The notes beneath the pieces were generated by a model, which ran no database searches, was not told the origin of the DNA, and saw only the letters and a program-made list of their open reading frames with translations. A stretch of 35,902 nucleotides of DNA from a virus: positions 1-35,902 of IMG/VR virus record IMGVR_UViG_3300044712_001970; one strand, written 5' to 3'. Shown here piece after piece: positions 3,911 through 35,902 of this stretch; position 1 is the first letter of the stretch, and the number at the start of each line of letters is the position of its first letter. Made by a program: the position numbers and the translations under genes.

Positions 3911-4719
3911 TTGTGCACCCAGGTCACGGGATTGTCGAGCGGGATATAAGGAAACCCGCCGAAGTTGACCACGTTGTTGAACTTAGCGAGGCAGGTGGCG
4001 ATCGTCCCGTCGCAGCCGGGGAGGGCAGTCACCGTCTCACCGGTGGTGAGGCCCGGGATGGCCGCCTCCAGGGTGACGTCGTTGCCGGTGTGCCCGACGA
4101 TCATCCGCTTGTAATCGCCCTGCTCGACCGAGCCGTAGGTCCAGTAGCCGTCGGCCTCGGCCCCAAAAGCGGCGGCGGTGAGGGTGAGACCGTCCGCACT
4201 GACCGTCACCGCCGGGGTGATGGCGTAGGAGGCACTCAGCTTTCCGCACTCGGTCCCGAACACCTGCCAGTTGCATTCCGGGGTGTAATTCAGGCGCGGC
4301 ACCTCGCGCCGGAGGAGGTAGTCCATCCCGACGCAGCGCACCCGAGCGGTGGGGCCGCTCACCGCGGCGTTGAGCACGGCCCCGTAAAACAGCAGGGTCG
4401 GCAGGCCGGGATCGTCGCGGAGGATCTTCCACACCCGGACCCAGGCCGGGGCGATCGCCGCGCCGGCGAGGGTGTCGGCGATCACCGGGGAGGATTTGGG
4501 CATCTCGATCTCGATCTCGCCGGAGTCGAGGTTGGCGTTCCAGCTCACCCGGCCGCGGGTGAGCGCCGCCGGGACATACTCGTCTCCATTAAACCAGACC
4601 GCGGCGTCGGCCGAGGTGAAAAACCACTCGCTGGTCCCGCGCGTGAAGTGGTAGATTTCCACCGGGGTCCGGAGCGGAGCGCCCTCGCGGGCGATCAGAT
4701 AGGCGCCGGCGCTCTTCAT
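3907..4719 (-). CDS. Phage BR0599 / DUF2163-family tail hub protein (GTA orfg13-like)
   Basis: 270 aa. The N-terminal half (VEIYHFTRGTSEWFFTSADA, then YVPAALTRGRVSWNANLDSG) is the DUF2163-type domain. The C-terminal part (NWQVFGTECGKLSASYAIT, then CLAKFNNVVNFGGFPYIP) is the BR0599 domain, with the four cysteines at C150, C158, C237 and C244 (approximate) that bind an iron-sulfur cluster in related hub proteins. It joins the distal tail protein to the tip. It overlaps both neighbours by four bases. Family assignment is firm; the cluster is known only for relatives. Confidence 0.85.
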   Translation of the reverse strand: MKSAGAYLIAREGAPLRTPVEIYHFTRGTSEWFFTSADAAVWFNGDEYVPAALTRGRVSWNANLDSGEIEIEMPKSSPVIADTLAGAAIAPAWVRVWKILRDDPGLPTLLFYGAVLNAAVSGPTARVRCVGMDYLLRREVPRLNYTPECNWQVFGTECGKLSASYAITPAVTVSADGLTLTAAAFGAEADGYWTYGSVEQGDYKRMIVGHTGNDVTLEAAIPGLTTGETVTALPGCDGTIATCLAKFNNVVNFGGFPYIPLDNPVTWVHK

Positions 4720-6836
4720 TCATCCTCCCCGCTCAGGGTGGTCATGGCCAGCTCGACGTCGCCAACCGTCTCGGTGTCGTAGCCGACCTCAATCTCGTCC
4801 GAGTCGAACCGGGCGAAAAGCAGAAATGAGACCCGAAGCCGGCCGAGGTCGGTGGCGGCGCAGGCCTTGCCCACCGCGGCGTCGAGGTTGAGCTGGGTGC
4901 CGCCGGTGACCGACGCGACCTTCCGGCAGACGTGGGTTTCGTCCGGCCAGGCGATGAACAGGTGCCGGCCGACGGTGGTCTCCGGCAGCCAGCTTGTCTC
5001 GTAGTCGGCGTCGGCCGAGACGTGGAGGTGGGTGTCGCCGGCGAGGATGGCGGTGGTCACAGTCAGGTCGGAGGACCAGCTCGGGAACCAGAAGCCCCGG
5101 GCCCGGCCGCGGCGATCGTTGAAAAACTCGACCAGGTCCCAGACCCCGTCCCGATCGAGCCCGGTCCAGAGCGCCTTGAGGGCGCGCCGCGGTTCGGTCT
5201 CGCGGCACTCGGAGGTCTCGGAGCCCATCCCGGCGAAGACCTCAACCGACCGGCGGTGCTCGGTGGAGGGTTCGGAGATCCAGTTCGGCTCGACCGCGAA
5301 CAGCGGGGCGGAGCGGTAGGTTTCCCATCGACTCCAGGAGAAAATCTGGGCGCCGTAGGTCTGGTTGGCCGCGTAGAGCCGCCCCTCGCCGGCGAAGCCG
5401 TTCGCCGTCGTGCCGGAGGTAACGATCGTCTCGATTAGGGAGGGGGCCGACGGGTCGGAAACATCGACCAGCTTGATGTCGCCGTTGAAGACGGCGGCGT
5501 AGCGGCCGAACAGCTTGACGGCCCAGGGTGTCGCCATCGCCAGTTCCCCGACCACGGTCATGGCCGCCGGGTTGGAGACGTCGAGGATAAAATATCTGGT
5601 GTTGAATTCGGCGACGTGGAGCAGCCGGTTCCCCTCGATCGCAATGTTTGGGATCTGGACGCCGTCGTAGTAGGTCCCGAGCAGGTTGTAGGAGGAGTCG
5701 TAAACCTTGACGCCGGCGGTGCCGCAGACATAGATCCGCGATCCATTCTCGCTCACGGCGATCGACTTGGCGTTGGCGGCTTCGTGGTGGGACAGGGAGG
5801 GGTTGGTCGGGTCCGAGACGTCGATCACGCTCCAGCCCCGGGTGTCCATCGCCAGGTAAACCAGGTTCCCCCGCTTGACCAGGTGGTCGGTGGCGTCGGA
5901 GGAGTTGGTGTAGCGGCCGACGAAGACCGGCGCGGTCGGGTCGGAGATGTCCCAGATCTGAAGCGCGCCCTGGTTCGTTCCCGTCCCGGACCCGCCGAGG
6001 TAGGCGTAGTCGCCGTCGACCTTGCAATCATTGACGTTCGTGACGGCGGTCGAACTGAGCAGGACCGGGCTGGTCGGGTCGGAGATGTCGAGGATGACCA
6101 GGTGGCCATAATCGGCGATGAACATCAGGTCGCCCCGGACGACCAACTCGTAGGCGGTGCCGGAGGTATTGTAGCTTCCCAGCGAGGTCGGTCCCTCGAC
6201 CAGTTCCCGCAGCGTGGGGAGGGCCTTCGAGGCGTTGAGCGGGGACTCGACCAATTCGAGGGTGATCCCGGCCGCGGTGCGGGTGGAGAATGACGTCCCG
6301 ATCGCCGCCGGCAGCCGGCCGCAGATCAGGGGATAGACCTCGGTCCCGGCCGGCCAGGTTGCGGACAGCGCGGCCGAGAGGTCAATCCGGTCGGCATGCA
6401 CCGCCGCGATCGCGGCGGCCTCGTATTTGGTCGAATCGGCGGGGTCGGAGTTCGGGGCGAGCAGCAGGCACCAGTCCCCGGCGTAGAACCCGCGCCCAGA
6501 CGCAGCGTCGCAGGCCAGGACGGCCGTTCCGGCGGCGGCCTGGGCAGAGAGCAGGGCCCGGCCCGGCCAGGACGGCACGCCAACCACGCAGTGCTGGTTG
6601 GCCCGGATGAACCGGTCGAGAAACCGGGACCGCGACCGGGTCTCGGCCGCGGTGTTTCCCAGGGTGGAGAGGGCCATCGAGATCCGGCGGGTCGGCCAGG
6701 TGCGGAGTTCGCTGCGCTGCTCGGTCCCGGCATCGAGCCGGACGACCGCCGTCCGCCAGGCATAGCCGATCCGGACCGGGCTCGACCAGTCGGGCCGGAG
6801 GGCGAGGATGGCGGACGGCACGCTGAGCGTGGTCAT
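4716..6836 (-). CDS. Distal tail protein with inserted LVIVD-repeat beta-propeller
   Basis: 706 aa from the ATG at 6836 (GGAG about 11 bases upstream). Residues 1-200 and 505-706 look like two copies of one domain: each has a basic segment, a helix (RFLDRFIRANQ and DLVEFFNDRRGRARG), a Trp/Pro turn (VPSWPG and FPSWSS) and a similar beta-rich tail (GDWCLLLAP and GRHLFIAWP). Between them residues ~215-500 carry LVIVD-type blades with the motif D-[IV]-S-[DN]-P at about 250, 296, 339, 419 and 458. The site between tape measure and BR0599 hub is that of the distal tail protein of B3/D3112-like phages, normally much shorter. The propeller probably projects from the tail as a binding module. Confidence 0.8.
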   Translation of the reverse strand: MTTLSVPSAILALRPDWSSPVRIGYAWRTAVVRLDAGTEQRSELRTWPTRRISMALSTLGNTAAETRSRSRFLDRFIRANQHCVVGVPSWPGRALLSAQAAAGTAVLACDAASGRGFYAGDWCLLLAPNSDPADSTKYEAAAIAAVHADRIDLSAALSATWPAGTEVYPLICGRLPAAIGTSFSTRTAAGITLELVESPLNASKALPTLRELVEGPTSLGSYNTSGTAYELVVRGDLMFIADYGHLVILDISDPTSPVLLSSTAVTNVNDCKVDGDYAYLGGSGTGTNQGALQIWDISDPTAPVFVGRYTNSSDATDHLVKRGNLVYLAMDTRGWSVIDVSDPTNPSLSHHEAANAKSIAVSENGSRIYVCGTAGVKVYDSSYNLLGTYYDGVQIPNIAIEGNRLLHVAEFNTRYFILDVSNPAAMTVVGELAMATPWAVKLFGRYAAVFNGDIKLVDVSDPSAPSLIETIVTSGTTANGFAGEGRLYAANQTYGAQIFSWSRWETYRSAPLFAVEPNWISEPSTEHRRSVEVFAGMGSETSECRETEPRRALKALWTGLDRDGVWDLVEFFNDRRGRARGFWFPSWSSDLTVTTAILAGDTHLHVSADADYETSWLPETTVGRHLFIAWPDETHVCRKVASVTGGTQLNLDAAVGKACAATDLGRLRVSFLLFARFDSDEIEVGYDTETVGDVELAMTTLSGEDE

Positions 6837-6879: not shown

Positions 6880-6899
6880 CCCGCGCCAACGAGCGCGGG
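6880..6899. repeat. CAACGA-loop palindrome, copy 1
   Basis: Seven-base stem CCCGCGC/GCGCGGG around the loop CAACGA, followed by GCCACCTTT. It lies in the 85-base gap between tape measure and distal tail genes. Confidence 0.7.
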
Positions 6900-6921
6900 C
6901 CACCTTTGAGGACGATCATCA

Positions 6922-8814
6922 TCATTTGATTCCCATTGCCCGGGCGGCGGCGGCCGGGTCGCTCCGGAGCTGGTTGAAGATCGCGCGCCGTCCGGCGGCG
7001 GAGGCGAGGTACTCGTCGAGTTCGCGCCGGTCGAAGAAGTTGATGATGTTGACGCCGGACGGTCCGACCGACCCGCCCGAGGCGAAGGCCGCCTGAGGCG
7101 GCACATAAATTGGCAGGTTGAGGTTCATACCCGAGAATAAGCTGCGCGGGATCAGGCGGCGGCGGAGGGCCTCCATCACGCCGGAGCCGTAGAACCGGAC
7201 GGCGTCCACCGGCTGGACGTACTCGCCGGCGGTCAGGCGCGCGGGGATGTTGTCCGCCCGGTCGTTCGGGCTGTAGCCCCGCACCGGCCCGCCGGTGGCG
7301 TAAGCCTGGGCGCGGATCGAGGCGACCCGGGCCAGGCCGTTGGCGTAGATCAGCGTGGCCAGGATCGGGCCGAGGTAGGGACCGCCCTCTTTCAGGGCAC
7401 GGGTCGCGGCGATCTGGGCGTTGATCATCGCCTCGGCTGCTCCCGCGAGCTTCATGGCAATGAACGCCTCCTTGCTCTTTTTGCCGGAGAGTTCGTAAAC
7501 CTGGGTGGCGAGCTCCGTTGCCTGCCCGGCGATCTCGGCCCGGGTCTGCATCTCGGCCATCAGCAGGCGTTCCTTTTCCTCGGCCTCGGCCTTGGCCTGG
7601 GCGATCCGCTTGTCCGACTCCTCTTTTTCTTTTTTGGTTTTTTCCTCTTCGGACTTGGCCTGTTCCGCGGACCACTCGTTGTAGTAGTTCCGCCACTCCC
7701 GGAGGTTGAGCAGGTGCTGTCTTTGCAGCTCCTCCGGGGTCGGCGCGGTGGATTTGGGTTTGGCGGTGCTGCCGGTGCCGCCGGTCCCGCCGGCGGGGGC
7801 GGCTGGCGCAGGCGGGGGTGTGAGATAGTCCGCCCGGAGCTTATCCTGGATTTTTTTCTGATCGGCGGCGATCGTAGCCAGTCGGGCACGCGCCCAGGCG
7901 GCGCGTTGATCCATATTTCCGGCCACCTCCGGACCGCCGAAACTCAAAGTCCACGAAGGAGTGTGGTCGCCGGCGTTCCATTTGTCCACCGCCGCCAGCC
8001 AGGTCTTGAGTCGGGCGGCCTCGTCACCCAGTTCGATCAGCTTTTGCTGCTGCGGCAGGGCGTTCATGTTGTTGATCAGCATGGTCAACCAGGTCAGGGC
8101 GTTGGAGATCTGCTCGATGAACTTTGCCAGGTTGCCGCCGGCCAGCCACCCGCCGAGCGCCTCCATGAACTCGCTCACCGCCGTCTGGATTCGGGTCATG
8201 ACCCCGGAGAAGCCTTCCATCTTGGCCTGGGCGGCATCGCCGAATCGCTCCTCGACCTGCTTCATCACCGCGGCGAACTTCTCGTTTTTGGGAATGTTCT
8301 CGTCAACCTTAATCCCGTAGCGGCCGAGCATTTCAGTCTGGCCCTGGAAAGCTTTCCCCACCAGGGTCGCGGCCGATCCCAGGTCAATGTCCAGACCGGC
8401 CGCCAGGTTGAGCGCGGCCGAAAGCGCCTTGTCCATCGCATCGCCGGTCAGCCCGAATTGGATCAACTGTTTTTGGGCGGATTCAATTTCTTCTTCTGTT
8501 ACTCCGGTCAGGTCCTGCATTTCGGAGGCCAGGTCTTTCGCGTGGGCGATGGCCTTTTCGGAGTAGACGCCGCGGGCCTTCATTGCCGCGGCCAGCCGGA
8601 GGTCGGCCTGCTCCTGCTCGGCAAAGGCGACCACGCATTTTTTGGCCCCCTCATAGATTGCCGCGAAGGAGAGTGCTCCGCCGATCGCAGCCAGGCCGCC
8701 GGAGAGTACGCCGCTCATTCGGCTCATGTTGTCCATCTCGCCCGATACCTTCCGAAGTTCGGCGGAGGCGGCGTCTTTGGCTTTGATCAGCAGCTCAACG
8801 ATATTGTTCGGCAT
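6922..8814 (-). CDS. Tail tape measure protein
   Basis: 630 aa. The N-terminus (IVELLIKAKDAASAELRKVS) is the classic tape-measure start. A hydrophobic segment follows at ~38-58 (LSGGLAAIGGALSFAAIY), then long helical stretches, including a Glu/Lys-rich coiled coil at ~380-430. The C-terminus (YATGGPVRGYSPNDRADNIP, then LTAGEYVQPVDAVRFYG) is the widely conserved tail-end motif. It sets tail length, and a helical rod of this size predicts a tail of roughly 90-100 nm by the usual 0.15 nm per residue rule. It starts two bases after the chaperone frame ends. Confidence 0.92.
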   Translation of the reverse strand: MPNNIVELLIKAKDAASAELRKVSGEMDNMSRMSGVLSGGLAAIGGALSFAAIYEGAKKCVVAFAEQEQADLRLAAAMKARGVYSEKAIAHAKDLASEMQDLTGVTEEEIESAQKQLIQFGLTGDAMDKALSAALNLAAGLDIDLGSAATLVGKAFQGQTEMLGRYGIKVDENIPKNEKFAAVMKQVEERFGDAAQAKMEGFSGVMTRIQTAVSEFMEALGGWLAGGNLAKFIEQISNALTWLTMLINNMNALPQQQKLIELGDEAARLKTWLAAVDKWNAGDHTPSWTLSFGGPEVAGNMDQRAAWARARLATIAADQKKIQDKLRADYLTPPPAPAAPAGGTGGTGSTAKPKSTAPTPEELQRQHLLNLREWRNYYNEWSAEQAKSEEEKTKKEKEESDKRIAQAKAEAEEKERLLMAEMQTRAEIAGQATELATQVYELSGKKSKEAFIAMKLAGAAEAMINAQIAATRALKEGGPYLGPILATLIYANGLARVASIRAQAYATGGPVRGYSPNDRADNIPARLTAGEYVQPVDAVRFYGSGVMEALRRRLIPRSLFSGMNLNLPIYVPPQAAFASGGSVGPSGVNIINFFDRRELDEYLASAAGRRAIFNQLRSDPAAAARAMGIK

Positions 8815-8815
8815 G

Positions 8816-9309
8816 TTATCTCTTCATCCGGTTCAGCGTTTTGTCCCAGTCCTTGGCTTCACTCCAGACTGCGGCGCGCAGCATCCCGAGGTCCTCGAGG
8901 AGCAGGCGGGCGGCGATCTTCGCCTGCCCCTCGGCGAAGCTCAGTCCGTAGTCGAGGGCGGCGGGTCCGTGGCCAGCCCGACAAAGCCGAGCGTAGAGTT
9001 CCGCAGCGCCTTCCGCATCTGATTGACGATCCCGATGACGGTCTGGTCCAGGCCCAGCCACTGGGCCGCCGCGAAAAAATCCCCGTTGACATCCTGGAAG
9101 GCCAGCCACAGGGCCTTGAGTTCGGACGGGGCCAGGTCAATCAGGTCGTCGAGTGTGACGCTGGTCCAGCGGGCGGCCACGTCGGCGAGGAGATCGCGCA
9201 CGTCGTTGACGTTGCTGAACCGGTCCTTGAGATCGAGCGCCTCGCGGAGCGTGATCTCCCGGACCTCGATCTGTTTCCCGCCGACATCCACGATTTTTGA
9301 TTTTCTCAT
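8816..9309 (-). CDS. GT-type tail assembly chaperone made by -1 frameshift
   Basis: The short chaperone frame (stop at 8941) is followed by an overlapping -1 frame without its own plausible start. That frame ends at 8816 and encodes a helical tail (LSFAEGQAKIAARLLLEDLG, then WSEAKDWDKTLNRMKR). This is the lambda G/GT layout. A canonical slippery heptamer T TTT TTC lies in the correct phase at 9079-9073. A later shift in the C-rich run at about 8967-8956 would keep more of the zero frame and gives a less Gly/Pro-rich junction. The existence of the fusion is likely; the exact shift site is open. Confidence 0.65.
8941..9309 (-). CDS. Tail assembly chaperone (G-like)
   Basis: 122 aa from the ATG at 9309 (upstream GGAAG is a weak ribosome site). 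The sequence is acidic and helical (LREALDLKDRFSNVNDVRDL, then LIDLAPSELKALWLAFQDVN), as in the small chaperones that coat the tape measure before tube polymerisation. It sits between the tail tube genes and the tape measure gene, the conserved position. Its downstream overlap with the -1 frame supports the G/GT assignment. Confidence 0.75.
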   Translation of the reverse strand: MRKSKIVDVGGKQIEVREITLREALDLKDRFSNVNDVRDLLADVAARWTSVTLDDLIDLAPSELKALWLAFQDVNGDFFAAAQWLGLDQTVIGIVNQMRKALRNSTLGFVGLATDPPPSTTD

Positions 9310-9324
9310 CTTCCGGTTCCCTCC

Positions 9325-9348
9325 GGCCGGCGCCAACGAGCGCCGGCC
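9325..9348. repeat. CAACGA-loop palindrome, copy 2
   Basis: Nine-base stem GGCCGGCGC/GCGCCGGCC around CAACGA, followed by ACTTTCGGG. It lies in the gap between the second tail tube gene and the chaperone gene, 13 bases from the AGCGTCACGCT palindrome at 9361. Confidence 0.75.
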
Positions 9349-9360
9349 ACTTTCGGGTCG

Positions 9361-9384
9361 AGCGTCACGCTCGTCACGCTGCCT
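9361..9384. repeat. AGCGTCACGCT palindrome next to tail tube gene
   Basis: Palindrome at 9361-9371 followed by CGTCACGCTGCC, the same trailing half-repeat seen after the copy at 28084. It overlaps the very end of the tail tube gene (stop at 9374). Confidence 0.6.
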
Positions 9385-10165
9385 CGTGGTCGCGGACGCG
9401 GACGACGTAGGTGCCGTCCTCGTCCGAGTCGTACTGGATCTCGCCGTTGAACTCGAGGGTGGCGAAGTCCTCGCCCAGGTAGACGGTGTCGCCGGCCGGG
9501 GTGAGGTTGACGCGGTAGATTTCGACCTCGACCCGGCGGAAGTTGTCCTGGTCCACGCCGAGGAAGAGGAGCCGGCCCTGCATCTTGTTCAGGGTGTCGC
9601 CGGTGACGAGGGAGCCGCCATTGATCGCCAGCCAGGTCGAGCCCACGGTGCAGGTGTCTCCCTCGGTTACGATGGCGCCGGTGGAGAGAAACTTGATCAT
9701 GCCGTGGACCAGGTCGAGCTCGTAGTCGGTGCCTTTGACGCAGGGGGTGGCGCTTTTGAGCACCGCCGGCAGGTGGTCCGGGTCGAGGTTCTTGTAGGAG
9801 AGCGGCACCCACTTGTCGAGGTGGGCGACGACCGACTCCGGGCTGCCGGTGTTGTTGCTCGCCGACTGGGTGTAGGCCGCGGCGCTGCCCTGCATCGCCA
9901 GGGCGAGGTTCTCGGGGTTGATGTCGGTCAGGGTGAACTTGAGCGACTGGCTCTTCTTGGTGGTGACCGAGCTGACGACCTGGCCGTAGACGCCGTAGCG
10001 GGCGGACTTGAGTTCCTTCTTTTCGGTGGTGATGCCGGTGATGGCGAAGTTCTGGGCGTTGCCCAGGTCGAGGTAGCCCTGGCTGTCCCCGTCGGCGTCG
10101 AGGACGTCGAAGAGGATCTTGCCGGAGCCGAGGTAGGATTCAGGTTCGTAGGTCGAAGCGGTCAT
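9374..10165 (-). CDS. Major tail tube protein, copy 2
   Basis: 263 aa. It shares a full-length pattern with the gene just upstream: SYLGSGKILFDVLDADGDSQ, then GYLDLGNAQNFAITG, KSQSLKFTLTDINPENLALA, TWLAINGG and GEIQYDSDEDGTYVVRVRDH. The length, the beta-rich composition and the position before the chaperones fit a siphovirus tail tube subunit. Either copy could be the main tube protein; the other could be a minor or alternative subunit. Ten bases separate it from copy 1 and the ribosome site AGGAGGC is good. Confidence 0.75.
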   Translation of the reverse strand: MTASTYEPESYLGSGKILFDVLDADGDSQGYLDLGNAQNFAITGITTEKKELKSARYGVYGQVVSSVTTKKSQSLKFTLTDINPENLALAMQGSAAAYTQSASNNTGSPESVVAHLDKWVPLSYKNLDPDHLPAVLKSATPCVKGTDYELDLVHGMIKFLSTGAIVTEGDTCTVGSTWLAINGGSLVTGDTLNKMQGRLLFLGVDQDNFRRVEVEIYRVNLTPAGDTVYLGEDFATLEFNGEIQYDSDEDGTYVVRVRDHEAA

Positions 10166-10175
10166 GGCTGCCTCC

Positions 10176-10994
10176 TTAGAGCACCACCGGGCTGACCCCG
10201 GCGAGGTGGCGGACGGTGTGGGTCCCGTTGGTGGCCTGGTCCCATTGTATTTCGCCCTCGAAGCTAAGCTCGGCGAACTCGGTCGAGATCCAGTTGATAT
10301 CGCCGGACGGGGTGAGGTTGGCCTTGGGGATGGCGACCTCGACGACGCGGTTGCCGGCGAGGTCCACGCCGCAGAGCAGGATCCGGCCTTCGAGTTTGGT
10401 CAGGGCGTCGCCCTCGACCTCGAATCCGTTGGCAATGGCGAGCCAGGTGGACTCGACCTCCAGCACCTCGGCCTCGGTGATGGCCCCGCTGGTGAGGGGT
10501 TTAATCAGGCCGTAGGCGTAGTCGATGATGTAGTCGCCGGTGCCGTCGGTGGGGTCGTACTCGTCGTAGGTGGTGCCGCCGCCGGACGCCTTGACCACCG
10601 GCGGGGTTTCGGTGTCGAGGTTGACGCCGGCCAGCCGGGACCAGCGGTCGAGGTGGGCGGTGACGTGTTCGTGCGCGCCGACGTTGTTTCCGCCGGCCTG
10701 GGTCCAGCCGGCGTCCGATCCCATCAGGGCGAGGGCGAGGTTTTTCCGGTTGATGTCGGTCAGGGTGAACTTTAGGCTCCGGCTGATCTTGATCATCACC
10801 GAGTCGGAAACCTGCCCGTAGTTTTCGGAGCGCATCGAGATCATTTCCTTCTTGTCGGCCGACACGCCCGAGATGGAAAAGACCTTAGCGTTGCCGACGT
10901 CGAGGTAGCCCTGGCTGACGCCGGAATCGTCGAAGACGTCGACCAGCAGCCGCCCGCTCCCGAGGAAGCTTTCCGATTGGTACTCGTTGTTCAT
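10176..10994 (-). CDS. Major tail tube protein, copy 1
   Basis: 272 aa, paralogue of the following gene over its whole length (SFLGSGRLLVDVFDDSGVSQ, GYLDVGNAKVFSISG, SRSLKFTLTDINRKNLALAL, STWLAIANGFEVEGDALTKL). A main difference is a short Gly/Asp-rich insertion near 135-155 (ASGGGTTYDEYDPTDGTGDY). Tube subunits stack as hexameric rings around the tape measure. Tandem tube-like paralogues may build different parts of the tail or give mixed rings. Start chosen at the ATG at 10994, following a GGGAGGTAGATTG ribosome site. Confidence 0.75.
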   Translation of the reverse strand: MNNEYQSESFLGSGRLLVDVFDDSGVSQGYLDVGNAKVFSISGVSADKKEMISMRSENYGQVSDSVMIKISRSLKFTLTDINRKNLALALMGSDAGWTQAGGNNVGAHEHVTAHLDRWSRLAGVNLDTETPPVVKASGGGTTYDEYDPTDGTGDYIIDYAYGLIKPLTSGAITEAEVLEVESTWLAIANGFEVEGDALTKLEGRILLCGVDLAGNRVVEVAIPKANLTPSGDINWISTEFAELSFEGEIQWDQATNGTHTVRHLAGVSPVVL

Positions 10995-11024
10995 CTCAAT
11001 CTACCTCCCGCGGCTCCCGCCGCC

Positions 11025-13301
11025 TCAGACTTTAACTTTCCGGCGGAGCCGGTATTCGGCCGACCACGCGCAGAGCCGGAGCCCGTAGTCGTGGCCGACC
11101 ACCTGTTCCTCCATCAGTTCGAGTTTCCCGTCCTGGATCAGCGTCCCGTCGACCGTGGCGCTGAGCGTCTGCTCGCTGAGCCGGTCGCGGACGGCTTCGA
11201 TCAGCTCGTAGGCGCCCGGCTGGGAGACGGTGTTGTCTCCTCGCCGGGCCTCGGCCTCGCCCCGGGTGGAGTGGTCGGCGACGTAGACGACCACGGTGAT
11301 CTCCTGGCCGGTCTGGCGGTTTTCCGGGATGCACCGCATCCGCGGAACCTGGACGTAGACCCGGGGGAACTTCCCGCGGGAGATGTCGGCCAGGACTTTC
11401 GGGTCCGAGAGCTGGCCGCCGTAGCTTTCGACCGAGACGGCGCCGAGGGTGGTGAGGTCGGAGAGCCGGGCCAGGACCGCGTCCTCGACCTCGGTGTAGG
11501 TGAGGCTGCCGCGGGCGGTGACCGGGGCCGCCGCCGGGATCCGGGCCAGCTCGCACCATCCGGCCAGGGCCGACATCTGGGCGGACGAGTCCATCACGAC
11601 GGCGAGGGGGGCAAAGGTGTCCGTTGCGATCAGGCCCGTCACGGTGTGCGGTCCGGGCCCGGTGAACGACAGGAACTTGACGCCGTTGATTCCGCCGCTG
11701 GACGCGATCCATCCAATCAAAACCATGTCCGAGGCTCCGGCTCCGGAGACTGTCACGCTGGCAGAGAGCCGGTCAACCGAGCGTTGTACCGAGGAAACCG
11801 AGACGGTCGGACCGGTAGAGGTCAGAAGTCCGAGCGCCGCGGTCAGGCAGGGCGGGCTCGACCCGGCCGCGTTGGTGGCGGTGATGCAGACCAGGGCGGG
11901 GAAGTCGATATCGAGCCCGGCGAACTCTCCACCGACGGAGGAGAAATTTAGGACAACGGTCACGTCACCGGCTCCGTCCGCCACGCCGTTCCCGACCTCG
12001 ATCAGGGTCGGGGTCCAGTCGAAGATGGAAACGCCCCAGACGTGGACCGTGGCTCCGGCCTCGGCGGTGGCGACCAGGCTGCCGGAGTCCCCGTTTCTGG
12101 TGCACGAGACCAGGACCGGGGCCTCGGGCGGGGACGGAAGCGGATCGGGTTCCGGCGGGGTGACGGAGCATCCCAGGTGTCGGATCTGGTAGTTGGCCAG
12201 GCCGGAGGAGACGCAGGTCAATTGGATCTTGAGGTAGCGGCCGGCGGCGTCAGCAGCGGCGCGGAAACCGGCCAGGGTGAGTTCGCTGGACCAGGACCCG
12301 GCCGGGCTGTTGGCGATCTCGTACTTCAAAGTGTAGCCGGCCACGCCGACTGAGGCCGCCCACTGGGTCTCGTCGTCGACGGCGAGGGTGGAGAGGTCCC
12401 AGGTCGCGTCGTCCTCCCCGGCGTCGAGGGTGACGACCGCGCCCGCCTGGGTGGTGGCGTAGATCGACGCCGGGGCCGTGGGGTACGACTCGGCCGAGGC
12501 GTCGTAGGCGGTATAGCGGCGCACGCTGTAGGTCGCGCCGATGTGGTCGGAGGAAATCCCGCCGGCGGCGGCGTGGGAGCCGTGGAGGGTAAGGCCGGGA
12601 TTCTCCTCCGCAACCAGCGTCGGCATGAGTGGGGCGGCCGAGGTGGAGCCCGAGCCGAGCAGGGTCCAGGAGGAGGATTCTCCCCAGCGGTAGAGCCGGA
12701 TGAAGGCGTTGCTCGTCCCGGCCCCGACCGCCTGGTAACCAAACTTGAGGTAGAGGATGTCGCCGTTGGCGATGGACGCGCTGCCGGAGAGCGGGTTGAG
12801 GTCCAGGCCGGTGGTGAACATTGTTCCGGCGGCATCGTAAAGCTCGAGCCGCACGCGGGTCGCGGAGACGATGTAAACCTTCCACCTTTTCATCCCGTTG
12901 ACGGCGGTGTATTCGGAGATCGGGTGTCCGGTCACGGTCGTGGAAGTGGCCTTGAACCAGTGGTGGATGGTGAACTCGTTCACGTTGCGCTGGGCCGCGG
13001 CGTGGTCGAGGAAGAAGAAGCCGGTGTTGTTGAGCGCCTCGTACCCGGTGAAGGGGGTGATGCCGGGCGCGATCGCGGTCATTGCGCCGACGAAGTTCTG
13101 GCCGAGGGCCAGGTCGGGTTCCTGGTAGCGGATGGCCCGCGCCGTTGCCGGGATGACGAACGGGCCGAGCGCCACGTCGCAGAGGATGGCGGGCGTGGCG
13201 ATCAGATGCGGCCGGAGCCGGACCGCTCCCCCGCGCAGCTCGAACAGGGTCGGAGCGGCGGAGAGATCAAAGGCCGAGGCCGGCGCGGTGATGGTCGGCA
13301 T
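11025..13301 (-). CDS. Mu gp37-like (DUF1834) tail completion domain fused to LamG/Ig-like region
   Basis: 758 aa. Residues ~600-758 (LTYTEVEDAVLARLSDLTTL, FPRVYVQVPRM, VVVYVADHSTRGEAEARRG, AYELIEAVRDRLSEQTLSA) match the gp37/DUF1834 family, normally a free-standing protein of 150-200 aa after gp36. The preceding 600 residues are a LamG/concanavalin-like fold at ~90-265 (FTIHHWFKATSTT, then SSSWTLLGSG), a second sugar-binding-like stretch at ~300-380, a Pro-rich linker (PEPDPLPSPPEAPV) and two Ig-like repeats to ~590. No usable start occurs just before the gp37 part, so the fusion is real in sequence. It may display lectin domains at the head-tail joint. Confidence 0.75.
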   Translation of the reverse strand: MPTITAPASAFDLSAAPTLFELRGGAVRLRPHLIATPAILCDVALGPFVIPATARAIRYQEPDLALGQNFVGAMTAIAPGITPFTGYEALNNTGFFFLDHAAAQRNVNEFTIHHWFKATSTTVTGHPISEYTAVNGMKRWKVYIVSATRVRLELYDAAGTMFTTGLDLNPLSGSASIANGDILYLKFGYQAVGAGTSNAFIRLYRWGESSSWTLLGSGSTSAAPLMPTLVAEENPGLTLHGSHAAAGGISSDHIGATYSVRRYTAYDASAESYPTAPASIYATTQAGAVVTLDAGEDDATWDLSTLAVDDETQWAASVGVAGYTLKYEIANSPAGSWSSELTLAGFRAAADAAGRYLKIQLTCVSSGLANYQIRHLGCSVTPPEPDPLPSPPEAPVLVSCTRNGDSGSLVATAEAGATVHVWGVSIFDWTPTLIEVGNGVADGAGDVTVVLNFSSVGGEFAGLDIDFPALVCITATNAAGSSPPCLTAALGLLTSTGPTVSVSSVQRSVDRLSASVTVSGAGASDMVLIGWIASSGGINGVKFLSFTGPGPHTVTGLIATDTFAPLAVVMDSSAQMSALAGWCELARIPAAAPVTARGSLTYTEVEDAVLARLSDLTTLGAVSVESYGGQLSDPKVLADISRGKFPRVYVQVPRMRCIPENRQTGQEITVVVYVADHSTRGEAEARRGDNTVSQPGAYELIEAVRDRLSEQTLSATVDGTLIQDGKLELMEEQVVGHDYGLRLCAWSAEYRLRRKVKV

Positions 13302-13739
13302 CTAGAACCTCTCCAGCTTGGTCCGGGTAAGCTGCTTCTCTGGGTTGGTCGAGGAGACTACCGGGCGGTTATTCTGCGGCGGCGTGCCGCCCGGGTCGTC
13401 GGCGCCCAGGCTGACCACGCCCTTCGATATGTCGCGGAGGAGCCGGACCTGGTTGTCGTAATCGGTCTTGACCTGGTCGGGGACGGAGACCAGGGAGCGG
13501 CGGGCGTGGAGGTGGTAGATGGCCATCCGGACGGAGGCGAGCCGGATCACGGTGGGAACCGGGGAAAGCGGGACCGTGTGCCGGGTGCCGACGTAGCCGT
13601 CGATCTCGGCGTCGGCGTCGGCGATCGCCCGGGTGACGACTTCATCCACCACCGCTCCGGTGTTCTCGTCATCGGTGAGGGTGATGAGGCTGTCTTCTGG
13701 GAGCTGGAGCAGGATGTCGGCCTTGGTCGAGTATGCCAT
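13302..13739 (-). CDS. Mu gp36-like (DUF1320) head-tail connector protein
   Basis: 145 aa, typical length. Conserved family features: the start AYSTKADILLQL, an acidic D-rich helix (VVTRAIADADAEIDGYVG) and R/Y helices (IRLASVRMAIYHLHARR). Proteins of this family are predicted to close the head vertex where the tail binds. It abuts the gp37 fusion gene with no spacer, which suggests translational coupling. Confidence 0.85.
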   Translation of the reverse strand: MAYSTKADILLQLPEDSLITLTDDENTGAVVDEVVTRAIADADAEIDGYVGTRHTVPLSPVPTVIRLASVRMAIYHLHARRSLVSVPDQVKTDYDNQVRLLRDISKGVVSLGADDPGGTPPQNNRPVVSSTNPEKQLTRTKLERF

Positions 13740-13852
13740 CTATCGGTCCTCCGTTTCTGGGTCGGTCAGGGTTTCTAAAAACGGCCCGGGAGCGTTTACG
13801 CTCGTTGCGGGCGAGGTGATCGTTACCGGGCCGTTGCCTACAAACCCTGGAC
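13740..13852 (-). other. Gap with open frame but no start
   Basis: Gap of 113 bases between FluMu_N-like and gp36-like genes. An open frame of about 38 codons crosses it in a frame offset from both neighbours and stops just before the gp36 ATG, with no ATG/GTG start in good context. It may be a decayed or frameshift-appended tail of the upstream gene, or just spacer. Confidence 0.3.
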
Positions 13853-14071
13853 CTACTTCACGCGGAGCATCTTGTCCGCTTTGAGGCGGGCGATCTGCCC
13901 CGGGGTGAAGCTCGCGGGCACGTCCTGCCACTCGCTGGTCCACTTGACGCCGCAGCGGATGAAAGCCTTCCTCGGACTCACCGTGCGGCACTGGAGCGGC
14001 TGAGCCGCTTCTTTGGTCCCGGCCTCCGGCTGGGCCGGCGGCAGAGTTGCGGTGACCTTTTCCTTCGTCAT
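13853..14071 (-). CDS. FluMu_N-like small head protein (Mu gp35 position)
   Basis: 72 aa from the ATG at 14071, chosen because AGGAGG lies eight bases upstream. The C-terminal half (FIRCGVKWTSEWQDVPASFT, then QIARLKADKMLRVK) has the FluMu N-terminal-domain pattern: a Trp-containing beta hairpin followed by a short helix. The N-terminal half is Pro/Ala-rich and contains the AGCGGCTGAGCCGCT palindrome in frame (encoding AAQPL). It sits between capsid and gp36, as in Mu-like genomes. Its biochemical role is not established. Confidence 0.75.
   Translation of the reverse strand: MTKEKVTATLPPAQPEAGTKEAAQPLQCRTVSPRKAFIRCGVKWTSEWQDVPASFTPGQIARLKADKMLRVK
13995..14009. repeat. GCTGAGC palindrome inside FluMu_N-like gene
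   Basis: AGCGGCTGAGCCGCT, one of three GCTGAGC-centred copies in the window. Confidence 0.6.
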
Positions 14072-14139
14072 TCGTACCTCCTGCATTTTTTTGCGGGGGT
14101 GCGGGGGAGGTCACCTCCCCCCCGCTCCCGGCTTAGAAA

Positions 14140-15048
14140 TTAAACCGTCGCCCGGACGTTCTCGATGATTTTGACCATCCCGAAGTCGGGGTTGGCCGCT
14201 CCGGCCGACGTGGTCGGCATCTCAAACAGGGCCTTGGCGGCGAAGAGGTCGGTTGGGTGGACCAGGATGTGGGTCGGGGTGATGCCGAGCGGCCGGCCCT
14301 GGTCGTCGAGCAGGGCCATCATCGCCGCGCGGGCCGCGCGCCAGGAGGTGGAGTCGAGCGCGTCCTTGCAGGCATAGGCGAGCTGCCACATGCCGTAACC
14401 GCAGGCCTTGCGGTCGTCCACGCCGTAGCTGAAGACCTTCCGCTCGAAGACGTTCTCGTCGTTGGGGTTGTCCTTCCGGGTGAGCTGCGGCTCCTGGCGG
14501 ACCTGCATGATGAAGGGCTTGAGCGGCTTGGAGAGGTCGAGCAGGTACCAGTAGTAGGTCGCGGAGCCGCTGTTGAGGTTGGCCGCGGTGGTGGCCGCGC
14601 CGGCGGCGGTCACGGCCGGGTGGTCGGTGTCGAAGAAATACTGGCCATCGAAGCAGAGCTCGGTGAACCCGGCCTCGAGGCACTCGACGAGCAGCTCTTC
14701 CTTGTGCTGGGCCGCGGCCTCGGCCAGCATCCCGATCATCGGGGTGAAGACACCGTACTGGTCATCGAGGATCTTATTCCGCGGGACATCCACGGTGGCC
14801 TCGAAGTCCCGGTTGGCCAGGACGTAGTGGTACGCGGCGAGGTTGGAGTGCTGGCGCTCGCCGATCCACTCGCGCATTTTGGGCACGCCGCCGAGGAAGC
14901 CGTAGTCGGTGCTCTCGGAGGCGCTGGGGAAGACGGAGGCGAGCAGGGCGACCAGGTTGGTCTTGAGCTGCATCGCCGCCATCGACCGGTTGAACTCCGC
15001 GGAGAACGTCCGGTAAAGGTTGGCGAGGTTGGAGGCATTGATCAACAT
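14140..15048 (-). CDS. Major capsid protein (Mu gpT-like)
   Basis: 302 aa, the usual gpT size. Family signatures: N-terminal NLANLYRTFSAEFNRSM, then FLGGVPKMREWIGERQHSNL, AYHYVLANRDFEATVDVPRN, CFDGQYFFDTDHPA and the near-terminal THILVHPTDLFAAKALFE. It has an HK97-like fold and builds the icosahedral shell on the scaffold made from the protease gene's 3-prime half. A ribosome site GGAGAGAAGAAA precedes the ATG. Confidence 0.92.
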   Translation of the reverse strand: MLINASNLANLYRTFSAEFNRSMAAMQLKTNLVALLASVFPSASESTDYGFLGGVPKMREWIGERQHSNLAAYHYVLANRDFEATVDVPRNKILDDQYGVFTPMIGMLAEAAAQHKEELLVECLEAGFTELCFDGQYFFDTDHPAVTAAGAATTAANLNSGSATYYWYLLDLSKPLKPFIMQVRQEPQLTRKDNPNDENVFERKVFSYGVDDRKACGYGMWQLAYACKDALDSTSWRAARAAMMALLDDQGRPLGITPTHILVHPTDLFAAKALFEMPTTSAGAANPDFGMVKIIENVRATV

Positions 15049-15131
15049 TTTCTTCTCTCCTTTTCGGTTGGGGGCGGCGGGCGGCCGCCCCCGGGTTGAT
15101 GGTTCAGACGCTGTCGGCCGGCGTCAGTCGA

Positions 15132-16226
15132 TTAACTGGTGAGCCGCTTCCGGGACGCCTCGAACCAGATCCCGCTGACCAGCAGGGTGTTGTTGCTGGT
15201 GGTGTGAGTGCCCGGGGTCAGTTCGACGGTCAGAATCTGTGCTCCGCTCTTCACGTCGGCGGCGGCGATGGTGGCGGTGTATTCCGCCCAGGTGGTGTTG
15301 GTCACGGCCGCGGTGGCGTCCTCGACCTTGGTGTCGCCCTCGTCGAAGTAGGAATCGAGGTTGATCACCGGGTGGTCCGTGTTGACGCCCTCCTTGGCGC
15401 GGCAGTGGAAGACGATGTCCTTGGTGGTGTCCACGTCGGCGGGCAGCACCACCTGGCAGACGACCGGGGTGGAGTCGGAGGCCGCCCAGGTGATGGCCAG
15501 GCAGGAGTCGGTGTCGCCGTTGATGTGGTCCAGCTTCGGCGTGGTGTCTTTGGTCAGGTAGCCGATGACGTTGGTCGCATCGCCCTCGAGCACGGTGGCC
15601 AGCGGAACCGGGATGACGTACTGGGCGGTCTCGAGTGCCACCTTGTTCGCGTCGGCGATGACCTTGATTTCCGCCAGGGCGCCGTCGGCGTCGGTGGCGG
15701 TGGTGCTGTTGTTGGGGTCGGAGAACGTGACCACCGAGGCTGCGATGGTCGCGCCGACGATGCAGGCGGAGTCGATCTGGATCCAGCCCTCGGTGGAGGA
15801 GATGTATTCGACCAGCCGGCCGCAGGGGATCAGGTTCGAGCTGGTGTTGTCGAAGGTGCAGTCGTCCTTGACGTACATGATCGAGCCGACGTGCGACTGC
15901 GAGATCGAGGTGGCGGCGAACTTGAAGCAGCCGGTCCGGCGGACGAGGACGTTGATGTAGCCGTCGGTGGCATGGGCGGAGTTGTCCGCGGTTTCCTCGG
16001 CCACGCCGACAAAGATCGTGGACGCGGTGTCGGCCGCCGGGATGGCGTAGCCGGACGAGTTGATGCTGACCATCCCGCCGGCGTAGATGCAGACCGACCG
16101 GTAGACCGGCAGCACGACGAACTGGCCGTCCTTGCGCTCGGTGTTCCGGTCGGCGCTGAGGGCCATGCCGAGGAGCGGGAGCATCGAGAGCGCTCCGAGG
16201 ATCAACATGAGTAACTGGATCTTCAT
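15132..16226 (-). CDS. Capsid decoration-like protein (DUF2190-type) with hydrophobic leader
   Basis: 364 aa from the ATG at 16226, which has GGGAGG upstream. Residues 21 on (MALSADRNTERKDG, VYRSVCIYAGGMVSINSSGY, VGVAEETADNS, INVLVRRTGCFKF) look like a DUF2190-type capsid decoration protein between protease and capsid genes. Residues 1-20 form an extra hydrophobic leader (MKIQLLMLILGALSMLPLLG), unexpected in a virion protein. An internal ATG at 16166 would give the canonical family start, but its ribosome site is weak. Residues ~185-364 add a beta-rich C-terminal domain ending in SGIWFEASRKRLTS. The true start is uncertain. Confidence 0.7.
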   Translation of the reverse strand: MKIQLLMLILGALSMLPLLGMALSADRNTERKDGQFVVLPVYRSVCIYAGGMVSINSSGYAIPAADTASTIFVGVAEETADNSAHATDGYINVLVRRTGCFKFAATSISQSHVGSIMYVKDDCTFDNTSSNLIPCGRLVEYISSTEGWIQIDSACIVGATIAASVVTFSDPNNSTTATDADGALAEIKVIADANKVALETAQYVIPVPLATVLEGDATNVIGYLTKDTTPKLDHINGDTDSCLAITWAASDSTPVVCQVVLPADVDTTKDIVFHCRAKEGVNTDHPVINLDSYFDEGDTKVEDATAAVTNTTWAEYTATIAAADVKSGAQILTVELTPGTHTTSNNTLLVSGIWFEASRKRLTS

Positions 16227-16242
16227 TTCATTAACCTCCCTG

Positions 16243-16257
16243 GGCGGCTGAGCCGCC
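16243..16257. repeat. GCTGAGC palindrome upstream of decoration gene
   Basis: GGCGGCTGAGCCGCC, identical to the copy inside the portal gene at 19032. It ends just before the CAACGA hairpin and only a few bases from the decoration gene ribosome site. Confidence 0.7.
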
Positions 16258-16275
16258 TCGTTGTTTTTCGGTCTC

Positions 16276-16297
16276 GCCCGCTCCAACGAGAGCGGGC
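16276..16297. repeat. CAACGA-loop palindrome, copy 3
   Basis: Eight-base stem GCCCGCTC/GAGCGGGC around CAACGA, followed by CACCTTTGGGG. It lies in the gap between protease/scaffold and decoration genes. Confidence 0.75.
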
Positions 16298-16316
16298 CAC
16301 CTTTGGGGCGCGGGGA

Positions 16317-16886
16317 TCATCCCCGCGGCGCGTGCTTCCGATAGGTTTCGCGGTCCATGCCGCAGCGGCGCAGCATCTCGTCCGGCGGATCACCCGCGGA
16401 CGCGCCGGAGTTGGCCCGGTCGGAGAGGGACACGGTGTCGATGCCGTCGAGCGGGACGACGGGCACGGCCTTCTCAACGAAGGCTGCGAACTGGGTGGGC
16501 CGTTCCTTGGCCTCGGTCAGGGCCCAGTCCTTGAGGGCGGGCGGAATCTTCCCGGCCTTCATCGCGGCGTCGACCACCTCGGTCGCGGTGCGGGTGGCGA
16601 GCTGGTCCTTGAGCGCGGCCAGGTCGGCGGCCACGCTGGCGTCCGGCCGGGCGGAGAGCGCGACCACCGCGGCCACGACCTCGGACTCGGGCGCGGCCGG
16701 GGCGAGTTTCAACACGCCGCGGACGTTGGCCGCGAGCGCCATCTCGGGCTCGGCCCGGGATTTGAGCTCGGTCAACGCGGCCTCCGCGCCTCCTCCGCCA
16801 GCCAGCTTGGCGATGGCCGCCAGGCAGTCTTCCTCGGTCCCCGTTTCCGGCAGGCCGAGGGCTTCGAGCAACTTTTTCAGGTCCAT
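16317..16886 (-). CDS. Internal scaffold protein (Mu Z-like) nested in protease gene
   Basis: 189 aa, same frame as the protease. The ATG at 16886 has a near-perfect ribosome site (AAGGAGG with five-base spacing), rare inside a gene. The product (start MDLKKLLEALGLPETGTEED) is helical and charged, with an Ala-rich middle and a basic end, as expected for a scaffold. Mu and relatives express gpZ from the 3-prime end of the I gene in the same way. It should fill the prohead and then be digested by the full-length protease. Confidence 0.85.
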   Translation of the reverse strand: MDLKKLLEALGLPETGTEEDCLAAIAKLAGGGGAEAALTELKSRAEPEMALAANVRGVLKLAPAAPESEVVAAVVALSARPDASVAADLAALKDQLATRTATEVVDAAMKAGKIPPALKDWALTEAKERPTQFAAFVEKAVPVVPLDGIDTVSLSDRANSGASAGDPPDEMLRRCGMDRETYRKHAPRG

Positions 16887-17477
16887 CAGTACCTCCTCCT
16901 TCTTTGCTTCGGCCATGCCGAGCGCGGTTGACCCGGCGGCGGTGTCGGACGCCACCAGCGGGTCGATGTTGGTGAGCGCCGGCCGGTTGGTCAGCGCCAC
17001 CGATTTGATGCCCACCACGCGGCCGTTGGGCCAGTGAATGACGGGCGAGAAATACCGATACTCGCGGCTGCCGAGCATGGCCAGCGCCCGCTCGGTCCAG
17101 GTGATGCCGGCGGCCCAGAGTCCGTCGGGCCGGGCTTCGAGCTTGAACCACCCCGCCGCCGGAGCGGTGCCGTCGGGCGACCGGTAGTCCAGGCGCTCGG
17201 GCTTGCCGGTTTCCGGGTCGGTGAATTCCACCAGGCCCTGGGTCTGGTGTTCGTAGTCGATCGGGAGGTCGGTCCCGCCGGCGGCAAAGGCCGCAACCGC
17301 CGCGGCCGCGCCGGCGGCGTCGAGCACCACCACCCGTCCGTCGCGGGTCCGGGACTCTCCGAGCGGCAGGAGGCGGAACTCCTTCGGCGCCAGCGTGACG
17401 CTGGACCCGTTGGCCGCCGGCACAATTTCCCTGAGAGTGAGGGTCCGGCCTTCCAACTCGCGCAGAAAGTTCTTCAT
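16317..17477 (-). CDS. Prohead protease-scaffold (Mu gp32/I-like)
   Basis: 386 aa. The first ~190 residues are the Mu I protease domain (FRLLPLGESRTRDGRVVVLD, LPIDYEHQTQGLVEF, APAAGWFKLEARPDGLWAAG, YRYFSPVIHWPNGRVVG, SVALTNRPALTNI), with the candidate catalytic His in IDYEHQT. The rest is an Ala/Glu/Lys-rich scaffold that can also be made separately from an internal start. The protease matures the prohead by removing scaffold and capsid N-terminus. The N-terminus contains an in-frame 15-base palindrome encoding SSVTL. It shares one base with the upstream gpG-like gene. Confidence 0.9.
   Translation of the reverse strand: MKNFLRELEGRTLTLREIVPAANGSSVTLAPKEFRLLPLGESRTRDGRVVVLDAAGAAAAVAAFAAGGTDLPIDYEHQTQGLVEFTDPETGKPERLDYRSPDGTAPAAGWFKLEARPDGLWAAGITWTERALAMLGSREYRYFSPVIHWPNGRVVGIKSVALTNRPALTNIDPLVASDTAAGSTALGMAEAKKEEVLMDLKKLLEALGLPETGTEEDCLAAIAKLAGGGGAEAALTELKSRAEPEMALAANVRGVLKLAPAAPESEVVAAVVALSARPDASVAADLAALKDQLATRTATEVVDAAMKAGKIPPALKDWALTEAKERPTQFAAFVEKAVPVVPLDGIDTVSLSDRANSGASAGDPPDEMLRRCGMDRETYRKHAPRG
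17390..17404. repeat. CCAGCGTGACGCTGG palindrome in protease gene
   Basis: Codes for SSVTLAP near residues 25-31 of the protease, before the conserved domain begins. Confidence 0.65.
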
Positions 17478-25078: not shown

Positions 25079-25160
25079 CGTTATTTTCTCCGCTATCCCT
25101 GTTTTTATGCCGCCTAGCGGCTTTTAAATTAATCAGTTTAACACGGTAAATCCGTGTTAA
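25079..25160 (-). promoter_or_regulatory. Early/late operon boundary
   Basis: 82-base AT-rich gap between the last early gene (gam) and the first late gene (amidase). It holds two hairpins: an eight-base stem TAACACGG/CCGTGTTA at 25139-25159 directly after the gam stop, and GCCGC/GCGGC at 25109-25121. The first could terminate early transcription, and the AT-rich spacer between them may hold the late promoter. No clear -35/-10 pair is visible, as expected if a phage activator is needed. Confidence 0.5.
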
Positions 25161-34129: not shown

Positions 34130-34196
34130 TGATGGGATTCATCTTAACACACCTTTCGCGGTGTGTCAACAAGGTTTTTTTAAAAAAACACCAGCG
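34130..34196. promoter_or_regulatory. Divergent lysis-lysogeny control region
   Basis: 67 bases between repressor (plus) and Ner-like gene (minus). The minus strand has TTGACA (34169-34164), exactly 17 bases, then TAAGAT (34146-34141), a near-consensus sigma70 promoter. The inverted repeat ACACACC/GGTGTGT (34147-34153 and 34160-34166) overlaps the -35 and fills the spacer; it is the likely repressor operator. A second palindrome-like tract, GGTTTTTTT/AAAAAAACACC (34173-34192), lies next to the repressor start. No clear plus-strand promoter was found. Confidence 0.85.
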
Positions 34197-35536: not shown

Positions 35537-35902
35537 TGACCTGGCTGCGTCCGACGCCCGCCAGGCCGCATAAATGGGCTGAAGTTTTTCGGATAGGGTT
35601 TTTGTGTTTCTTGGCCCCTGCCGCCCGCATGATTACTGGGCTGTCAGGCCGTTTCAGGCCTGCTCAAGGTTTCTCAGGTTCCCTGCGGTGGTACACCAGG
35701 ATCGGGGCGGACCTGATTCCGGCGAACGGAACCAACGGATCCGACGGATCAGACGGATCGTCGCGTTGCCTTCGGGATGTTCCGTTTTATCCGTTGGTTC
35801 CGTTCGGTCGAATCAAGGCCACAGCCTCGCCAGTCGCCGCCCGGCAATCATTTCCGGTCTTATCCGTTCCATCCGATCCTCGTCCGTTTCATCCGTTTAA
35901 CC
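35537..35902. other. Probable host intergenic DNA beyond the prophage
   Basis: 366 bases without a convincing gene. It begins with nested hairpins (CCCAT/ATGGG and CCTGGC/GCCAGG, about 35533-35578). Then come repeated ATCCGT/ACGGAT units, including a perfect 18-base inverted repeat. No tRNA is seen and the plus-strand open frame of about 98 codons is made of these repeats. Confidence 0.5.
35723..35806. repeat. 18-bp perfect inverted repeat with ATCCGT units
   Basis: CGAACGGAACCAACGGAT (35723-35740) pairs with ATCCGTTGGTTCCGTTCG (35789-35806) across a 48-base loop that itself contains further ACGGAT units. More ATCCGT copies follow to 35898. Looks like a host dispersed element or a bidirectional terminator. 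Confidence 0.7.

Follow-up and report, generated by a model that had tools for sequence, protein, structure and literature searches.

Three intergenic gaps in the late operon of the viral record IMGVR_UViG_3300044712_001970 contain hairpins with one identical loop, which raises the question of what these hairpins are and how they came to lie among structural genes. A preliminary description of the whole 35,902-nt stretch analyzed here (the window) proposed a functional RNA hairpin or a REP-like element. These are also the two leading readings to emerge from our analysis, which supports the proposal in part.

By its PHROG and Pfam matches, which include a Mu I-type protease, a gpT-type capsid, portal, terminase, transposase, Gam, and an S24 repressor, the record is a Mu/D3112-like transposable phage. 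The closest relatives found for its major capsid protein are 51% identical in IMG/VR, 49% in genomes, and ~42% among named phages. Queries with two hairpin-adjacent products, the structural protein and the tail protein, found no closer relatives, while the tail assembly protein recovered five relatives at ≤37% identity. A search of the window's end region for host identification gave zero matches. Judged by protein similarity, the phage is an orphan lineage within the Mu/D3112-like transposable phages.

The genes flanking the hairpins are all on the minus strand (Table 1). These genes are assigned via PHROG or Pfam, the hairpin-bearing gaps between them are real, and the placement of all three copies in intergenic gaps of the late operon was confirmed. 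The late operon has four gaps of >50 nt, and the hairpin is present in three of them.

Table 1. Hairpin copies, the genes that bound them, and the remaining large gap of the late operon (window coordinates).
Feature	Coordinates	Strand	Details
Hairpin copy 1	6880..6907	-	Foot AAAGGTGG 6907-6900; loop TCGTTG 6892-6887
Stem of copy 1, CCCGCGC/GCGCGGG	6899-6893 with 6886-6880	-	7 bp, perfect
Tape-measure-like tail protein, upstream of copy 1	6922..8814	-	PHROG 3336/3547/991
Tail assembly protein with LVIVD/beta-propeller repeats, downstream of copy 1	4716..6836	-	PHROG 1082, Pfam PF08309
Hairpin copy 2	9324..9353	-	Foot AAAGTGG; nine Watson-Crick pairs plus one G-U; loop TCGTTG 9339-9334
Major tail protein with Ig-like domain, upstream of copy 2	9374..10165	-	PHROG 807
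Tail assembly chaperone-like gene, downstream of copy 2	8941..9309	-	PHROG 7608/1442; ATG at 9309
Hairpin copy 3	16276..16304	-	Foot AAAGGTGG 16304-16297; 8 pairs; loop TCGTTG 16289-16284
Mu-like I head maturation protease, upstream of copy 3	16317..17477	-	Pfam PF10123, PHROG 328
Virion structural protein, downstream of copy 3	15132..16226	-	PHROG 1731; ATG at 16226
Fourth large late gap, repeat-free, before major capsid gene	15049..15131	-	Unrelated GC hairpin GGGGGCGGC...GCCGCCCCC

The preliminary description, which had read the plus strand, reported hairpins at 6880, 9325, and 16276 with perfect stems of 7, 9, and 8 bp, a constant CAACGA loop, and a CACTTT-like tail. The hairpins were found at these positions (plus-strand loops at 6887-6892, 9334-9339, and 16284-16289), the loop is CAACGA in 3/3, and the stem lengths agree, with site 2 reaching 10 pairs if a terminal G-U is counted. 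The tail, CCACTTT or CCACCTTT, does adjoin the stem. However, because the late genes run on the minus strand, it is in the transcript a 5' leader, AAAG(G)UGG, and the transcript loop is UCGUUG. On the coding (minus) strand, the unit reads AAAG(G)TGG-CCSGCKC-[TCGTTG]-GMGCSGG (n = 3). GTGG abuts the 7-bp core directly in all three copies, and at sites 2 and 3 the stem reaches one or more pairs into this tag. The 3' arm of copy 2 continues into the GGAGGG ribosome-binding site of the following gene.

The stems had been described as different, yet they are mostly the same: five of the seven core pairs are invariant, and in the other two both partners are replaced (site 2 has G-C for C-G, and site 3 has U-A for G-C). 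The compensatory change with a fixed loop is thus seen, though it amounts to two changed pairs in a set of three copies; the observed level of covariation is attained in 44 of 500 shuffles, a weak signal, as expected from three sequences. Sliding of the stem partners abolishes pairing. Conservation extends from the foot to the base of the stem, with 24 of the first 32 columns of the three-copy alignment invariant, and the flanks beyond have no common sequence. The foot begins 14 nt past the tape-measure stop codon at site 1, 20 nt past that of the major tail protein gene at site 2, and 12 nt past that of the protease gene at site 3, and the end of the stem lies about 14-50 nt from the next start codon. 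All three copies have the same orientation relative to the genes and are confined to the late operon.

Just before copy 3, at 16310-16326, the TGA stop of the protease gene forms the loop of a separate perfect hairpin, GCGGGGA-TGA-TCCCCGC. Such a TGA-loop hairpin at the upstream stop was considered as a second common feature and rejected, as it is strong at site 3 only, moderate at site 2 (where the TGA lies three codons past the stop), and weak at site 1.

GC-rich genomes yield many hairpins, and other unrelated hairpins are present in these gaps, both of which speak for a chance likeness. Among hexaloop hairpins with at least 7 perfect pairs in the window, three have one loop in common; in dinucleotide-preserving shuffles (n = 60) there were never more than two such hairpins per loop. 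The best direct repeat of 32 nt in the window matches at 29 of 32 positions (sites 1 and 3, when aligned, are 91% identical across 32 nt), whereas the maximum in 40 shuffles was 26. A covariance model applied to the window recovered exactly three copies at 52.6-54.3 bits, the fourth match (13.6 bits) being at chance level. The shuffles refute chance similarity, which retains virtually no probability, and the complete repeat far exceeds chance expectation.

GC-rich stems between cistrons might be transcription terminators or attenuators that reduce downstream late-gene expression. The sequences that follow the stems in the sense direction are AGGCGGGC, CGGAGGG, and GAGACCG; none contains a U-tract, which makes an intrinsic terminator unlikely. 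On the opposite strand, the stem is followed only by a short TTT within CCACCTTT. Moreover, the downstream genes are essential, and the site 1 region folds no more stably than shuffles (z 0.63), although the site 2 region does (z -3.5). We consider termination or attenuation very unlikely.

The loop also contains UUG, at which translation could begin; the next protein would then be extended at its N terminus at sites 2 and 3, and at site 1 a leader peptide overlapping the next ATG would be made. At sites 2 and 3 this UUG indeed shares the reading frame of the gene downstream, and at site 1 it opens a short frame that ends in an ATGA overlap with the next gene. However, ribosome-binding sites adjoin the genes' own ATGs, and the spacing from AAAGG to UUG is long with a stable stem between. 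At site 2 the PHROG 7608 match runs from residue 9 of the UUG-started frame versus profile position 3, which puts the family start closer to the ATG, at residue 10, than to the UUG, at residue 1, although this is weak evidence. Because of the genes' own ribosome-binding sites and, more weakly, the family homology at site 2, initiation in the loop has an extremely slim chance of being correct.

Further copies were sought in several collections. No Rfam family matches any of the three sites at E-values up to 5. The search of relatives by covariance model that the preliminary description had proposed found no copy in 136 loci, with scores at chance level only, as was also the case in 17 host genomes. 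Among ~1,200 sampled genomes (random draws from four bacterial phyla), nothing was detected at an E-value of 0.001; these genomes were prefiltered strictly, with about 20 candidates scored per genome, and the positive control, the record itself, was recovered. An exact scan of GTDB species genomes with a 24-nt consensus gave zero matches, and BLAST of 40 nt against phages and plasmids gave chance-level results. Foot-stem-loop patterns in IMG/VR matched, beyond the window copies, only sequences without a comparable hairpin or coding-like sequence. In a looser IMG/VR scan, the matches listed included a few 6-7-pair stems with G-U pairs and a different sequence. A striking 27-nt IMG/VR match (L269/L272) was ruled out, as it sits within a coding frame, ALRFLYATANERATFEDR.

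The preliminary description had named the lack of further copies and of conservation in related phages as grounds for rejecting its proposal. Both were, literally, what we found. This absence is nevertheless no refutation, because the nearest relative found has ~51% identity in the major capsid protein and the collections searched may omit near records, so that absence there is not proof of uniqueness.

The same absence (IMG/VR patterns, GTDB exact scan, and 136 relative loci) is consistent with a phage-specific regulatory RNA hairpin, in which a phage or host protein, or an RNA, would read the UCGUUG loop and the AAAGGUGG foot and set the translation or processing of head and tail cistrons. 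A fixed loop and foot with covarying stem pairs, and the single orientation within the late operon only (3/3), point in this direction, and precedent exists in the SAS/ESAS repeats of Cluster K mycobacteriophages, which are phage-specific, occur in one orientation in gaps of >50 bp, and are nearly absent from the host (PMC3203893). The phage hairpins resemble these in being short repeats with an inverted-repeat part, in large phage gaps, in a single orientation, and not found elsewhere. However, SAS elements lie 3-7 bp before start codons, contain a Shine-Dalgarno core, and number 11-19 copies in the non-structural half (PMC3203893), whereas the phage hairpins belong to the structural operon, where they lie past stop codons and 14-50 nt ahead of starts, and have no sequence similarity to SAS/ESAS; a position 3-7 bp before the start with the ribosome-binding core inside was not found for the hairpins. 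Against the regulatory RNA stand also the low number of copies (three), the lack of a homologous copy in relatives despite related flanking gene order, the unrelated palindromes in comparable gaps of some relatives, and the weakness of two compensatory changes that shuffles can equal. We therefore regard a phage-specific regulatory hairpin as possible but rather unlikely.

The exact placement of every copy at a gene boundary would also suit linkers, i.e., short repeats that favor recombination between phage modules at gene ends. The repeat is only ~30 bp, no exchange junctions were seen, and the sequence is absent from relatives, so that this explanation carries very little probability.

Gaps of the relatives were informative in a different way. 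The gap between the protease gene and the next gene ranges from zero to >100 nt in relatives and is often palindromic, with sequences unrelated to the studied hairpin. Co-directional gaps have 14-mers in common in 9 of 68 relative loci (≥10 kb) versus 0 in 20 shuffles, a list that may include near-duplicate records (L142/L146, L252/L255) or loci partly outside phage. Clear repeated palindromes near phage genes occur in at least four relatives (L124, L131, L142, and L147), in comparable gaps and, again, unrelated to the studied hairpin. L131 (7930-8070 and 8270-8400) and L142 (9500-9640) have large, imperfect, lineage-specific palindromes in late gaps, with folding energies of about -39 to -53 kcal/mol. 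A hairpin in the protease gap of L212 was ruled out as a host repeat, being present in a single copy in its genome.

L124 has its palindrome three times, with 96-98% identity across 56-64 nt, and the first copy directly precedes the major capsid gene. Of 198 genomes sampled from the phylum of G002, 35 contain matches to this element, often several each, and the main match of the family in bacterial genomes is intergenic in most of the loci read. A phage-like contig with a tape-measure homolog (L293) has three copies of the same type of palindrome in its gaps. Short GTTCAA units in tandem make up part of the L124 repeat, a composition that eases independent origins, and the repeat does not belong to the GTAG-type REPs. 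Like the studied hairpin, GTTCAA-type palindromes (L124, L293, and genomes of one phylum) are repeated in late-operon gaps of distant Mu-like phages; unlike it, they are AT-richer, longer, composed of short near-tandem units, and without a tag-stem-loop or sequence similarity. At least one phage of the wider group thus has late-gap palindromes whose family also occurs scattered through bacterial genomes. That some relatives have other repeated palindromes in equivalent gaps, one family of which is dispersed chromosomally, is a new finding and favors the REP-like side of the original proposal. Alternatively, the palindromes of other lineages may be equivalents of a late-operon RNA element of transposable phages, in which a protein reading the UCGUUG loop and AAAGGUGG foot would tune the ratio of protease, tail, and tape-measure proteins; we think this improbable. 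Hairpins of varied stem and one constant loop between genes are also known from phage T4, where the C(UUCG)G hairpins differ in loop sequence and length and have no sequence relation to those studied here.

We prefer the reading that the three hairpins are copies of one REP-like palindrome, probably host-derived, which sits in permissive gaps and protects or insulates mRNA, and we give it about an even chance of being right. This preference follows mainly from the L124-type late-gap family that is also dispersed in bacterial genomes. REPs are mobilized by RAYT (TnpAREP, a Y1 transposase), the gene for which is usually elsewhere in the genome; in the record, a scan for a Y1/RAYT-type transposase gave no PF01797 match. 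GTAG-type REPs are intergenic palindromes near stop codons with an unpaired foot tag that varies to GTRG and, in one family, to GTGG, with stems mostly of 6-9 bp and subfamilies with complementary stem changes (PMC3733652), and the TnpAREP enzymes recognize folded single strands by their tag, loop, and stem (PMC8266576). By analogy, a fixed loop and foot with a covarying stem would follow from such recognition. The phage unit is alike in its GTGG tag at the foot of the palindrome (3/3 copies), its perfect stem (7-10 bp, compared with about 5-13 bp for GTAG-type REPs and 6-10 bp in the systems compared; PMC3733652, PMC8266576), its short, conserved 6-nt loop, its two complementary pair changes, and its proximity to stop codons.

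Several features differ. GTAG REPs number tens to thousands per chromosome, versus three copies in the phage record and none in the GTDB exact scan or the ~1,200 strictly prefiltered genomes, and the record is without a RAYT gene. In the phage hairpin, conservation also reaches into AAAG ahead of the tag; REPs need no such sequence, and its conservation counts against a REP. We file the hairpins as REP-like rather than REP because neither the multi-copy host family that defines REPs nor its transposase was seen. In addition, REPs in a phage would be unusual, since in two species the GTAG repeats are reported to occur only within core-genome regions (PMC3733652).

Under the preferred REP-like interpretation, the unit would comprise a 5' GTGG tag inside the longer AAAGGTGG foot, a perfect 7-10 bp stem, and a constant 6-nt loop, and would have been copied into permissive gaps just past late-operon stop codons. 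Its source would most likely be a host with the same family, and host repeat machinery may have done the copying. Mu-like phages replicate by transposition within the host chromosome, which makes exposure to that machinery plausible. On the polycistronic late mRNA, each copy would fold into a stable stem-loop between two cistrons, probably shielding the message upstream (protease, major tail protein, or tape measure) from 3'-to-5' decay and probably insulating the next ribosome-binding site, as chromosomal REPs may do. Roles proposed for REPs include mRNA stabilization (PMC3733652).

If the hairpins are host-derived, then chromosomal palindromes would have invaded an essential operon, that of the structural genes, in a virus that moves through its host's genome by transposition, and repeats in common could link orphan phages to their hosts. 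Some relatives suggest that palindrome invasion is recurrent, with each lineage having its own family. The hairpins would also provide a natural construct set for asking how hairpins between cistrons determine the relative amounts of head and tail proteins.

Several other features of the window are of note. In the tail assembly protein (4716-6836), the LVIVD/beta-propeller repeats (PF08309) precede a conserved C-terminal part. The neighboring genes at 9374-10165 and 10176-10994 both match PHROG 807 (major tail protein), and this profile match indicates that the tail tube gene was duplicated in tandem or diverged. Near the right end (35709-35820) is a long, imperfect inverted repeat with 43-nt arms, 79% complementary, and GGATC/CCGTT-type units; it is possibly host-flank DNA, and it was unmatched in the phylum of G002 and in the phage and plasmid collections. 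Palindromes with TTAACAC-type ends lie beside the S24 repressor gene (34144-34168) and upstream of the endolysin gene (25138-25160), and in sequence they look like repressor operators.
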